Assembly: GCF_000024545.1 (NCBI RefSeq)
Contig: NC_013947.1
Span: 6,696,001-6,760,000 of the forward strand
Length of the DNA: 64,000 nt
Direction of reading: 5' to 3'
Origin: Stackebrandtia nassauensis DSM 44728
GTDB lineage: Bacteria > Actinomycetota > Actinomycetes > Mycobacteriales > Micromonosporaceae
Below are positions 55,688 through 63,517 of the stretch, piece after piece (positions within the stretch are counted from its first letter, which is position 1; every line of letters starts with the position of its first letter). The translations under genes and the position numbers were made by a program. The notes below the pieces were generated by a model, which was given only the letters and a program-made list of their open reading frames with translations, did not search any database and was not told the DNA's origin.

Positions 55688-56014
55688 ATGCGCGCCGCCG
55701 ATCTATCCCATCCGACGGTCCGCGGGGTCGTCAACGCGCTGCGGCACGGCGACCGGGACGCGTTCTACGCGGCCTTCGCCGACGACGTCCGCCTCACCAG
55801 CGAAGGCCGCGACCGCGACCTGTACTGCTGGGCGGAATCCGAGATCTTCCCCGAACACGGCCGCATCGCGGTCCGCGCCGAACGCCACGACGGCCGGGTC
55901 GTGATCGGCAGCTACCACTCCGACCGCCGCAACCTGCCCAACACCGCCTGGCGCTTCGACATCGTCGACGGCCTGATCCGCTACCTCGACGTCGGCGAGG
56001 CTCGTGAGTCATAA
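55688..56014 (+). CDS. NTF2-like (SnoaL-type) protein
   Basis: 108 residues with the cone-shaped NTF2/SnoaL pattern: VNALRHGDRDAFYAAFADDVRLTSEG at the N-terminus and WRFDIVDGLIRYLDVGEA at the end. Such small proteins act as isomerases, cyclases or ligand binders; the substrate is not evident. GGGGAGGA lies five bases before ATG 55688. A MITE-like element begins 52 bp downstream. Confidence 0.75.
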   Translation: MRAADLSHPTVRGVVNALRHGDRDAFYAAFADDVRLTSEGRDRDLYCWAESEIFPEHGRIAVRAERHDGRVVIGSYHSDRRNLPNTAWRFDIVDGLIRYLDVGEARES

Positions 56015-56066: not shown

Positions 56067-56230
56067 AGGGCGTGTGTGGGAATTCCATTCCTGCTGCGCG
56101 CCCACCAGGCGGCGCCTGTCTGCGTTGTCGGCACTCCGACATCCAACACCGGGATGCCGGAGCACCTCCGCCTTGCCATGCATCCACCTGGAGGCCGCTC
56201 GCGACGGAAGCGAACTCCCACACACGCCCT
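56067..56230. mobile_element. MITE-like 164-bp fold-back element
   Basis: The ends are 25-bp terminal inverted repeats: 56067-56091 (starts AGGGCGTGTGTGGGA) and the complement of 56206-56230, identical at the first 15 bases and at 22 of 25. The interior continues as an imperfect palindrome, including GGCACTCCGACATCC (56131-56145 region) against GGATGCCGGAGCACC. It holds no gene. The size, paired ends and lack of coding capacity fit a miniature inverted-repeat transposable element or a collapsed insertion sequence. No clear target duplication is seen. Confidence 0.6.
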
Positions 56231-56249
56231 TGACCGGTAAGGAGGCGAC

Positions 56250-56672
56250 ATGACGGACCCGCTGCGGGTCAGCGACTCCGTCGTCGTACCCGAATCCGAA
56301 CTGGAATGGCGCTTCTCCCGCTCCTCGGGGCCGGGCGGCCAAAGCGTCAACACCACCGACAGTCGCGTCGAACTCAGCCTCGACCTGACGACCACCACCG
56401 CGCTGTCCGAACCGCTGCGCCAGCGCGCCCTGGAACGGCTCGCCTTCCGCCTCGTCGACGGCCGCATCACGGTCGCCGCCAGCGAACACCGCTCCCAACT
56501 GCGCAACCGCGAGGCCGCCGCCCAGCGCCTGGCCCAACTGCTGCGCGAGGCCACCGCCGCGCCCCCCAAGAAACGCCGCCCCACCAAACCCAGCAAGCGC
56601 GCCAAACAGCGACGGCTGGACGCCAAGAAACACCGCGGTCAGATCAAACGGCTGCGACGCGGCGAAGACTGA
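56250..56672 (+). CDS. arfB: Alternative ribosome-rescue factor ArfB (YaeJ)
   Basis: 140 residues with the peptidyl-hydrolase GGQ motif in SSGPGGQSVNTTDSRVEL (Gly29, Gly30, Gln31) and a basic helical tail (KKRRPTKPSKRAKQRR...) that enters the empty mRNA channel of stalled ribosomes. It releases the nascent chain from non-stop complexes. AAGGAGG before ATG 56250 fixes the start. It begins 19 bp after the MITE-like element, so the element is part of its upstream region. Confidence 0.93.
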   Translation: MTDPLRVSDSVVVPESELEWRFSRSSGPGGQSVNTTDSRVELSLDLTTTTALSEPLRQRALERLAFRLVDGRITVAASEHRSQLRNREAAAQRLAQLLREATAAPPKKRRPTKPSKRAKQRRLDAKKHRGQIKRLRRGED

Positions 56673-59172: not shown

Positions 59173-60527
59173 AGCGACTCCTCCTTGGGCACGTACTCAC
59201 CGGCGGGTTCCCAGCCCGGCGGCGGCTGGACCCGCACCTGCTCGACCCGGTGCCGTTCCACGTCGACGACGGTGAACTCCCAGCCCTCGTAGACGACGGT
59301 CTCGCCGACGGCGGGGATGTGCCCCAGCCGGGCCATGATGAAACCCGCGAGCGTCTCATAGGGACCGTCGGGCATCCGGAAGCCGGTGTGCTCGGCGATC
59401 TCGTCCTCGTGCAGCAACCCCGGGAGCAGGTGGGCCAGGTTGCCGGTGGCCTCGATGCGGGTCGAGGTCTCCTCGGCCGGTTCGGTGTCGTGCTCGTCGG
59501 CGATCTCGCCGACCAGCTCCTCCACCAGGTCCTCAATGGTCACGATGCCGTCGGTGCCGCCGTACTCGTCGATGACGATCGCCATGTCGGCGCCCTCGGC
59601 GCGCATCCGGGTCGCCAAACCGTTGAGGTCCAGGTGTTCCGGGACGAACACCGGTTCGCGCGCCACCGAACGCACCGACGTCACCGACCGGCGGGCGGGC
59701 GGCAGTCCCAGGGCGTCGGTCAGCGCGGCGACGCCGACGACCTGGTCGGTGGTGTCCTGGTAGACCGGGAACCGGCTGTAGCCGGTGTCGGCGGCGGTGT
59801 GGATCAGTTCGGCGATGGTGGCACCGGTGGGCAGCGCGACCATGTCCACCCGTGGCGTCATGGCCTCGGCGGCCCGCTTGTCGCCGAAGCGCAGCGTCCG
59901 TTGCAGCAGCATCGCGGTCTCACGCGGCAGCGTCCCGGCCCGGGCCGACATGGCGGCCAGCAACTGCAACTCGTCGGGGGCGCGGGCGGTGGCCAACTCC
60001 TCCTGCGGTTCGACGCCGAAGCGGCGCACCAGCCAGTTGGCGCTGCCGTTGAGCATGTGGATGAGCCAGCCGAACACGCTGGAGAACACCCGCTGCGGCG
60101 TCGCGGTGGCCCGCGCGATCGGGAACGGCCGTGCCAGCGCGGCGTTCTTGGGCAGCAGTTCACCGAACAACATGGACAGCAGGTTGGCCAGCACCATGCC
60201 GATCGCGATCGACACGCCCTCGGCGGCGTCGCCGAACGGTTTCAGCAGCGGCGCCAGCAGCCGCGACAGCGCGGGCTCGGCGAGGTAACCGGTCAAAAGC
60301 GCCGTGATCGTGATGCCCAACTGGGCGCCCGACAGCTGAAAGGACAGTCGCTTCAGGGCGCGCTGCACCGACCGGGCCCGGCGGTCGCCGGAGGACGCGG
60401 CATCGTCAATGGACGGACGGTTGACCGTGACCAGCGCGTACTCGGCCGCGACGAAGAACCCGTTGGCGCCGATGAGCAGCACGAAGGCCAGCAGCGGCAG
60501 TACCGTCTCGGTCAGGGTCGCATCCAT
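59169..60527 (-). CDS. CNNM/DUF21, CBS-pair and CorC_HlyC protein, long form
   Basis: 452 residues with the full family layout: CNNM helices (1-190; GANGFFVAAEYALVTVNRP, GELLPKNAALARPFP), CBS pair (about 205-345; MTPRVDMVALPTGATI, DEYGGTDGIVTIEDLVEEL) and CorC_HlyC domain (about 360-440). The family acts in magnesium homeostasis, not as a true hemolysin. It is the first gene of a two-gene unit 37 bp downstream of purL. Confidence 0.88.
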   Translation of the reverse strand: MDATLTETVLPLLAFVLLIGANGFFVAAEYALVTVNRPSIDDAASSGDRRARSVQRALKRLSFQLSGAQLGITITALLTGYLAEPALSRLLAPLLKPFGDAAEGVSIAIGMVLANLLSMLFGELLPKNAALARPFPIARATATPQRVFSSVFGWLIHMLNGSANWLVRRFGVEPQEELATARAPDELQLLAAMSARAGTLPRETAMLLQRTLRFGDKRAAEAMTPRVDMVALPTGATIAELIHTAADTGYSRFPVYQDTTDQVVGVAALTDALGLPPARRSVTSVRSVAREPVFVPEHLDLNGLATRMRAEGADMAIVIDEYGGTDGIVTIEDLVEELVGEIADEHDTEPAEETSTRIEATGNLAHLLPGLLHEDEIAEHTGFRMPDGPYETLAGFIMARLGHIPAVGETVVYEGWEFTVVDVERHRVEQVRVQPPPGWEPAGEYVPKEESL

Positions 60528-60563
60528 TTAGCGGTTTCTGGTCAGGGTCTCGCCGTCACGTGG

Positions 60564-62840
60564 TCAGGCGAGCAGTTCTGGCAGCGTAGCCCGCGAGGTC
60601 CGGCGCAGTTCGTCCAGACCGATGTGGAAGTGACCGTCCACCTCGAGACCGTCGGCTGTGGAGTCGACGATACCCAGTGCCGTCCACGGCACGCCGTTTT
60701 CCTCGCACAGCGCCCGGAACGCGACCTCGTGGCCGCGCGGGATCGTCACGAGCGCGCGGGCGCTGGACTCGCTGAACAGCGACACGAACGTGTCGGCGTC
60801 CTCCGGCAGCCGGACCCGGGCGCCGTTGCCGCCGCGCATGACGGCCTCGCACAGCGCCTGCGCCAGCCCACCCTCGGACAGGTCGTGGGCCGAGGCGATG
60901 TGGCCGACGGCCGCGCCAGCGCGCAGCACGGTGGCCAGGGCGCGTTCGGCGTTCAGGTCGACGGTGGGCGGCAGACCGCCCAGGTGCTTGTGCTCCACCC
61001 AGGCCCATTCCGAACCGGACAGCTCCTCGCGGGTGGCGCCCAGCTGGATCAGGATGTCGCCGTCGGTGCCCAGCCCCATGCCGACCCGGCGGTTGACGTC
61101 GTCGAGGACGCCCAGCACGCCGACGACCGGCGTCGGGTGGATCGCCTCCATGCCGGTCTGGTTGTAGAAGCTGACATTGCCGCCGGTGACCGGGATGCCC
61201 AGCTGCGAGCAGCCCTCGGCCAGTCCCTCCACGGCCCGCGCGAACTGCCACATGACCTCGGGGTCCTCGGGGGAACCGAAGTTGAGGCAGTCGGTGACGG
61301 CGATCGGGGTGGCGCCGGTGACGGCGACGTTGCGGTAGGCCTCGGCCAGCGCCAGCTGCGCGCCCGTGTACGGGTCGAGCTTGGCGTAGCGGCCGTTGCC
61401 GTCGGTGGAGATCGCGATGCCCATGCCGGTGTTCTCGTCCAGCCGCAGCACCCCGGCGTCCTCCGGTTGCGCCAGCACCGTGTTGCCGCGCACCAGGTGG
61501 TCGTACTGCTCGGTCACCCAGTGCCGGTCGCACAGGTTCGGCGAACCCAGCAGCCGCAGCACGGTGGCACGCAGTTCGTCCCCGGTGGCCGGACGCGGCA
61601 GCGTCTCGGCGCGGTCGACGGCCACCAGCGCGGCGTCGGCCGGTTCGCGCATCGGACGCTCGTAGACCGGGCCCTCGTCGGCGAGGCTCGCGGGTGGACA
61701 GTCCACGACGGTCTCGCCGTGCCAGTCGATGACGAGCCTGCCCGAGTCGGTGACCTCGCCGATCGCGGTGGCGAGCACGCCCCACTTGCGGGCGACCTCG
61801 AGCACCTCGGGCAGCACCCGGGGCTCGACGATCAGCAGCATCCGCTCCTGCGACTCGCTGGCCAGCACCTCGTGCGGCTCCATCGACGCCTCGCGCAGCG
61901 GCACCCGCTCCAGGTCGACGTGCATGCCGAGCTTGGCCGCGGCGGCGGTCTCGGACAGCGCGCAGGTCAGCCCGGCGCCGCCGAGGTCCTGCACGCCGGT
62001 CACCAGTCCGGCGTCGAACAGTTCCAGACAGGACTCGATGAGCAGTTTCTCGGTGAACGGGTCACCGACCTGCACGCTGGGCCGGGATTCGGCGGCGTCC
62101 TCGTCGAAGGTGGCCGAGGCCAGCACCGACACGCCGCCGATGCCGTCACGGCCGGTCTTGGCGCCCAGCAGCACCACGACGTTGCCGACGCCGGAGGCGG
62201 CCATGTTCTGCAGCCGCTTGGTCGGCAGCACGCCGACGCACAGCGCGTTGACCAGCGGGTTGCCCTGGTAGCAGGGGTCGAACACGACCTCGCCGCCGAT
62301 GTTCGGCAGACCGAGGCAGTTGCCGTAGTGGGAGATGCCCTCCACGACGCCGGGCAGTACCCGGGCGGTGTCGGGGTGGTCGGCGGCGCCGAAGCGCAGC
62401 GGGTCCATGATGGCCACCGGCCGGGCGCCCATGGCCAGGATGTCGCGGACGATGCCGCCGACACCGGTGGCCGCGCCCTGGTGCGGTTCCACGAAGCTGG
62501 GGTGGTTGTGCGACTCGACCTTGAAGCTGACGGCCAGTTCGTCGCTGACGGCGATGACACCGGCGTTCTCGCCGATACCGGCCAGCATGTGCGGCGAACT
62601 CGGGTTCTTCTCGGCGAACTTGCGCAGGTGCACCCGGCTGGACTTGTAGGAGCAGTGTTCGCTCCACATGATCGAGTACATCGCCAGCTCCGCCTGGGTG
62701 GGGCGGCGCTTGAGGATCTCGTGGATGCGCTCGTACTCGTCGGTCTTGAGGCCCAGCTCCGCGTAGGGCTGCGCCTCGTCGGCGGTCTTGACCGCCCGCT
62801 CGACGGTGTCGAGACCGTCGGTGGTTTCCACATTGGTCAT
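60564..62840 (-). CDS. purL: Phosphoribosylformylglycinamidine synthase, large subunit PurL
   Basis: 758 residues, the length of the small, three-component Pur[13 protein letters not shown] carries the active-site His, [15 protein letters not shown] and [11 protein letters not shown] are ATP- and FGAR-binding segments, and the second half repeats the AIRS-type fold. With PurS and PurQ it makes FGAM from FGAR, ATP and glutamine (purine step 4). ATG 62840 overlaps the purQ stop by 4 bp. Confidence 0.96.
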
Positions 62841-63517
62841 CTGGTGCCGACCCCCAGTTGTTTCAGCACGGACGAGAAGATGGTCAGGCCGTCGGACGAG
62901 GAGCCGGTCAACGGGTCGATGGCGTGCTCGGGGTGCGGCATCATGCCCACGACGTTGCCCGCCGCGTTGCGGATCCCGGCGATGTCGCGCATCGAGCCGT
63001 TCGGGTTCCCGTCCAGGTACCGCGCCACGACCCGGCCCGAGGACTCCAGTTCGTCCAGGGTGGCCTCGTCGGCCACGTAGCAGCCCTCACCGTGCTTGAC
63101 CGGGATGACCGCCCGCTGGCCGGACTCGTACCCGCTGGTCCAGGCCGAGTCGTTGCTCATCGCCAGCGGCTGGTGCCCGATCCGGTAACGCCGGTGCTTG
63201 TTGCGCACCAGGGCACCGGGCAGCAGGTGCGATTCGCACAGCACCTGGAAGCCGTTGCAGATGCCCAGGATGGGCATGCCCTCGGCCGCGACCTCCACGA
63301 TGGTCTCCATGACCGCCGAGAACCGCGCGATGGCACCGCAGCGCAGGTAGTCGCCGTAGGAGAAGCCGCCCGGCAGGACGATGGCCGCGACGCCGCGCAG
63401 TGCGCTGTCGTCGTGCCACAGTGGAACCGGTGTGCCACCGGCCCGTGCGATCGCCCGGTGGGTGTCGACGTCGTCGAGCGAACCGGGAAAGGTCACCACC
63501 CCGATACGAGCACTCAC
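62837..63517 (-). CDS. purQ: Phosphoribosylformylglycinamidine synthase, glutaminase subunit PurQ
   Basis: 226 residues, class I glutamine amidotransferase. The nucleophile is Cys87 in GICNGFQVL, and MPHPEHAID near the C-terminus gives the His and Glu. It frees ammonia from glutamine and feeds PurL. Its first base is the last base of the purS stop codon (63517). Confidence 0.96.

Follow-up and report, generated by a model that had tools for sequence, protein, structure and literature searches.

A palindromic element upstream of arfB in Stackebrandtia nassauensis as a probable IS5-type miniature transposable element with a conserved structured RNA body

The genome of Stackebrandtia nassauensis DSM 44728, a single contig of 6,841,557 bp, carries a palindromic element of 162-164 bp that ends about 19 bp upstream of the start codon of the ribosome-rescue gene arfB. 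The element lies at positions 56067-56230 of the window, the whole stretch of 64,000 nucleotides analysed here (NC_013947.1, positions 6,696,001 to 6,760,000), and is probably a non-autonomous transposable element of the IS5 type, a miniature inverted-repeat transposable element (MITE), with a conserved structured RNA body. Its arms are inverted repeats with 22/25 identity (88%) and identical outermost 15 bases, the left arm (56067-56091, plus strand) corresponding to the 3' end of the putative RNA strand and the right arm (56206-56230, minus strand) to its 5' end. The interior is itself an imperfect palindrome, and there is no real gene within the element, the open reading frames (ORFs) that cross it being mechanical. 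In all these respects a previous description of the locus made from the letters alone (the sequence-only reading) is confirmed. As DNA, a stretch of 211 nucleotides folds at -52.3 kcal/mol, compared with -39.1 +/- 3.65 kcal/mol for shuffled versions (z = -3.6; 0/200 shuffles equal), and RNA folding gives -110 kcal/mol for the window minus strand versus -84 kcal/mol for the plus strand. Covariance model R1, built from twelve copies, recovers the element on the minus strand (56233-56065, 179 bits, E 5e-40) and scores 48 bits on the plus strand. The transposon proper (GGGCGTG...CACGCCC; folding strand minus) occupies 56068-56229, and the A/T pair 56067/56230 probably lies outside it, judging from where other copies have their target duplications.

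The element belongs to a dispersed family. BLASTN against its own genome finds four further full-length copies at 86-92% identity, one copy interrupted by an insert (78%) and numerous partial matches, and R1 finds about 21-23 loci. The sequence-only reading had proposed such a count, and had held that a single copy conserved at this site across the genus would suggest a structured RNA or regulatory element instead of a mobile one; the count in this genome, and up to 56 copies in relatives, speak otherwise. Copies scored by R1 are present in 20 of the 41 genomes searched (its own and 40 relatives; G numbers denote genomes and L numbers loci), with 56 in G004, 45 in G015, 44 in G001, 36 in G017, 23 in G024 and 21 in G034, and in a wider sample of the phylum at least 18 of 396 genomes contain a match when the best seven candidates per genome are scored. 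The element is thus short, without coding capacity, bounded by terminal inverted repeats and present in many dispersed copies, as MITEs are. Reduced derivatives of 60-100 bp, in which the ends are kept and the core is absent, also occur, in its own genome at 4239459-4239727 (L012, L056, L061; several stand side by side at 4.239 Mb) and at L052, and in G004 at L301 and L305-L307.

Evidence for transposition comes from the flanks and the ends. Direct 3-bp TNA target duplications border copies of the family (27/46 identical versus 16.1 expected, p 0.001), and these are direct, not inverted. Insertion sequences of the IS5 family, 880-970 bp long, share their first 14 bases (14/14) with element ends, where chance inverted repeats at other loci mostly reach 8-11/14. 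The ends of L310 in G015 match copies of that same genome, those of L308 in G004 match a G017 copy, those of L322 and L335 in G036 match the S. nassauensis copy L044, and those of L323 in G010 match a G032 copy. The proteins encoded between matching ends are IS5 transposases by NCBIfam and Pfam (DUF4096 and DDE domains), L310 and L322 being named IS5. With target duplication and ends held in common with an autonomous element of relatives, the copies are a family of IS5-type MITEs, and IS5-family transposases with DUF4096 and DDE domains, acting on these ends, would move the element. The parent transposase with the same ends that the sequence-only reading proposed to look for has candidates in the insertion sequences of relatives, and none was found in the S. 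nassauensis genome. Where ends were followed in search of a parent in G017 and G004, those read belonged to MITEs, decayed copies and 60-bp derivatives and to nothing else, and in the Clostridiaceae genome G438 no recognisable transposase surrounds the two single ends read, L348 and L349. Two near-identical Streptomyces plasmids differ in the presence of a copy, an extra indel blurring the left junction.

Relative to genes, as called by a home-made gene finder, 20 copies lie in convergent, 18 and 12 in co-directional and 6 in divergent positions, and 26 further copies fall inside predicted ORFs, many of which are probably false. Many copies start at a stop codon or a few bases from one, whereas divergent promoter regions contain few. 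TNA as a target covers the stop codons TAA and TGA, which may explain both the frequent landing at gene ends and the rarity in divergent promoters.

The whole element folds as one rod-like RNA on the window minus strand, with about 80 pairs and conserved internal loops that have been retained while the sequence and the ends changed. The conserved core comprises a 5' side, GGCAAGGCGGAGG (56165-56177, minus strand), and a 3' side, CGACAACGC, with the GACAA loop (56122-56130, minus strand), both kept across phyla. Between them an apical stem-loop (56131-56164, minus strand) varies in sequence and length while its pairing is kept (14/15 pairs of helix 10 covary). Nearer the base, an internal loop with GCGAG on its 5' side (56198-56202, minus strand) and CGCAGC on its 3' side (56093-56098, minus strand) is conserved in the alignment of own-genome copies. 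Unpaired positions are conserved as well, AAG and GA on one side and GACAA on the other. By visual inspection the order of bases in the GA/GACAA loop does not match the kink-turn consensus, and no kink-turn is claimed. Some copies contain extra small GC-rich hairpins at loop or junction positions with the main rod intact (L046 and L049 in its own genome; L248, L258 and L261), and the Streptomyces plasmid copy L361 has two more inserted hairpins than its near-identical partner L358.

Covariation in the rod is extensive. RNAalifold on the twelve copies predicts 57 pairs, of which 32 show changes on both sides, and in an alignment of 48 rows, where two rows are antisense matches to copies that it also contains, both-side changes occur in 52/57 pairs, 92% of cells are paired as opposed to 34-41% with one arm slid, and the covariation score is 0.785 versus 0.09-0.13 in the slid controls. 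Because the rows had been fitted to the model, these pair counts lean toward the structure and are an upper figure. For an unbiased check the arms of 113 copies were aligned with strand-neutral scoring, and isolated mismatches between paired neighbours were counted. There are 300 G.T mismatches versus 43 A.C mismatches (about 7:1), or 204 versus 32 with one count per sequence context. The bias is found in every genome that has countable mismatches, the copies being related and the events not independent, and it reaches into the transposon ends (42 versus 5 contexts at nucleotides 10-20). On the opposite strand the excess would swap, and a strand-blind process therefore does not yield it; one defined strand appears to have been selected to fold. 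The two marks of a structured RNA, compensatory changes and strand-specific G.U pairs, are both present.

These counts bear directly on the notion of an ordinary MITE that does nothing as RNA: a snap-back palindrome whose regularity comes from repair between its arms and whose body is merely copied. MITEs are often palindromic without having a function, and template switching can give matched changes in both arms. Inter-arm repair is strand-blind, however, yet the mismatches are 7:1 in favour of G.T on one strand; strand-neutral upkeep of the palindrome is spoken against by this asymmetry. Unpaired loop bases are moreover conserved over phyla, and length is nearly fixed, at 160-168 bp in 80/84 copies. 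We consider this explanation improbable.

The ends and the body behave differently. In the end helix the mean identity between copies is 40% with 96% of positions paired, compared with 76% identity in the loop-bearing core. The window copy and a copy at 121,857 in its own genome have identical bodies (122/122) and ends that agree at 14/21 and 15/22 positions, the end differences being matched in both arms, and in a second own-genome pair the bodies agree at 119/122 positions while the ends are of different types (11/21, 12/23). Identical bodies with differing ends indicate that body and ends have separate histories, for which gene conversion of bodies between copies would be the simplest route of exchange. 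The best reading is that a structured RNA forms the heritable part and has passed from one set of transposon ends to another.

The range of the core extends well beyond the relatives of S. nassauensis. A pattern scan with GCAAGGCGGAGG-N(24-50)-CGACAACGCNGC returned, among the matches listed, many Streptomyces and other actinobacteria, Thiomonas, Sulfuritalea, Azonexus, Lachnospiraceae, Blautia, other Clostridia and one Myxococcales bin. The groups with the core are Actinomycetota, Betaproteobacteria, Clostridia, those of the gut among them, and viral contigs, the last represented by at least three; phage records gave no copies with a Streptomyces query. Several outgroup records are metagenome bins, in which binning errors are possible, and isolates (Thiomonas, Anaerobium) back the range. 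Outgroup copies give a similar rod when folded, and copy numbers can be high (21 in a Clostridiaceae genome, 29 in Streptomyces sp. SirexAA-E, 22 in Kitasatospora xanthocidica); 43 records of Streptomyces plasmids carry copies. At the Thiomonas loci L183 and L223 two or three cores lie close together, some inverted, and larger composite versions may exist in betaproteobacteria. As no Rfam 15 family scores at or above its gathering cut-off, identity with a known RNA family was rejected, and the body is an apparently uncatalogued structured RNA. The element is undescribed in the open-access literature searched; subscription journals and ISfinder fell outside that search, and an earlier report is possible. 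The proposal that the body is a structured RNA conserved across phyla, drawn from sequence comparison, goes beyond the sequence-only reading.

How such a body would persist can be outlined. The folded strand would be RNA, and exchange between different transposon ends would have carried the body across phyla. This strand most likely would serve the element itself and not a neighbouring gene, perhaps through binding of, or processing by, a widely conserved factor, and this is the least supported step of the scheme. The broader proposal, a cross-phylum class of protein-free mobile elements with a structured RNA as heritable unit, a body that swaps ends between different DDE transposons and a fold that aids its own spread or survival, is tentative and may well not hold.

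Several observations weigh against an IS5-type element with an RNA body. At the window copy a target duplication cannot be clearly made out. Neither its own genome (no PF13340 match) nor G017 yielded a parent transposase, and copies in its own genome may therefore be stranded. The pair counts of the 48-row alignment are upper figures, as stated above. Among the copies there is no preference for sense orientation to the upstream gene, as read-through RNA would lead one to expect, and the folding strand points against the replication fork in 71/99 cases on four chromosomes (that of its own genome, G000, and those of G004, G017 and G453). That bias would suit a role at the level of DNA, and together with the lack of sense preference it keeps a DNA hairpin in contention: the strand-specific fold might act as single-stranded hairpins or cruciforms, arising during replication or within the transposition complex, that the transposase or a replication protein recognises. 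DNA hairpins, too, tolerate G.T better than A.C, and the structure takes in the transposon ends. The fork bias, however, holds with the best-fitting origins and termini only, their placement coming from weak GC skew (G017 gives 13/29 with another terminus and G004 8/19 with another origin), and it is suggestive at most. No IS5-type DDE transposase is known to act on folded single strands, and stems rich in G.T together with conserved internal loops are a typical RNA feature. A DNA-level role is on balance unlikely, if a serious contender, and the MITE with a structured RNA body is the reading we prefer.

The gene arfB itself, a neighbour outside the element (56250-56672, plus strand), was rightly named by the sequence-only reading (NCBIfam NF006718 ArfB, E 1e-45; PF00472). 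Its ribosome-binding site, AAGGAGG (56239-56245), also lies outside. The suggestion that the element brings a promoter, a terminator or a folded RNA to arfB draws on its closeness to the start codon and finds no support. It is the strand antisense to arfB that folds, neither a promoter nor a terminator pattern was predicted at the element, unrelated genes adjoin other copies, and the arfB orthologues of two congeners (G001 and G002; L288 and L289) are without the element. The neighbouring genes of these orthologues differ, which limits their use as empty sites; their lack of the element joins the dispersed copies, TNA duplications and IS5-family ends in favour of a MITE. A regulatory RNA or leader of arfB is very improbable and as a conserved feature is already refuted, although a local effect on arfB in this strain is possible; the association looks accidental. 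The neighbour on the other side is an ORF of 108 amino acids (55688-56014) without a Pfam match. Very long ORFs on the wrong strand between 51104 and 63080 (at most 1276 amino acids, 59250-63080) are mechanical and are not to be read as genes, since high GC content produces them.

Prokaryotic MITEs with hairpin transcripts include NEMIS/Correia, ERIC, RUP, Nezha and QMITE of Coxiella (PMC3733652, PMC10969869, PMC5896051). Like these, the element is short, geneless, multi-copy and intergenic, has terminal inverted repeats and can be folded whole as one hairpin. Those families are described from one or a few related hosts, whereas here it is the body that several phyla have in conserved form, with covariation specific to one strand and conserved loops, and the ends vary. 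IS5-family insertion sequences (NCBIfam NF033580, DUF4096 and DDE_Tnp_1) have the same terminal sequences and a TNA-type target but, unlike the geneless element, encode a transposase. Structured RNAs accompany other mobile elements, as omega RNA does those of the IS200/605 and IscB type. The bridge RNA or seekRNA of IS110 likewise travels with its element (PMC11187229). Both kinds belong to elements with a recombinase or nuclease gene of their own, whereas the present element encodes no protein, folds across its ends and is unmatched in Rfam. REP/REPIN sequences with RAYT are also repeated intergenic palindromes, REPs being 20-40 bp long with a GTAG end and tyrosine transposases (PMC3733652); with DDE-type ends, a TNA duplication and its larger size, the element falls outside the REP/REPIN definition.

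The usual view takes MITEs for remnants of insertion sequences whose bodies carry no meaning, whereas here it is the body that is conserved and the ends that vary, over at least three phyla. This suggests that transposons harbour a structured RNA family missing from Rfam, and it makes the role of a MITE body testable by mutation of the loops. It would also account for a large group of palindromes between the genes of Streptomyces and its relatives.
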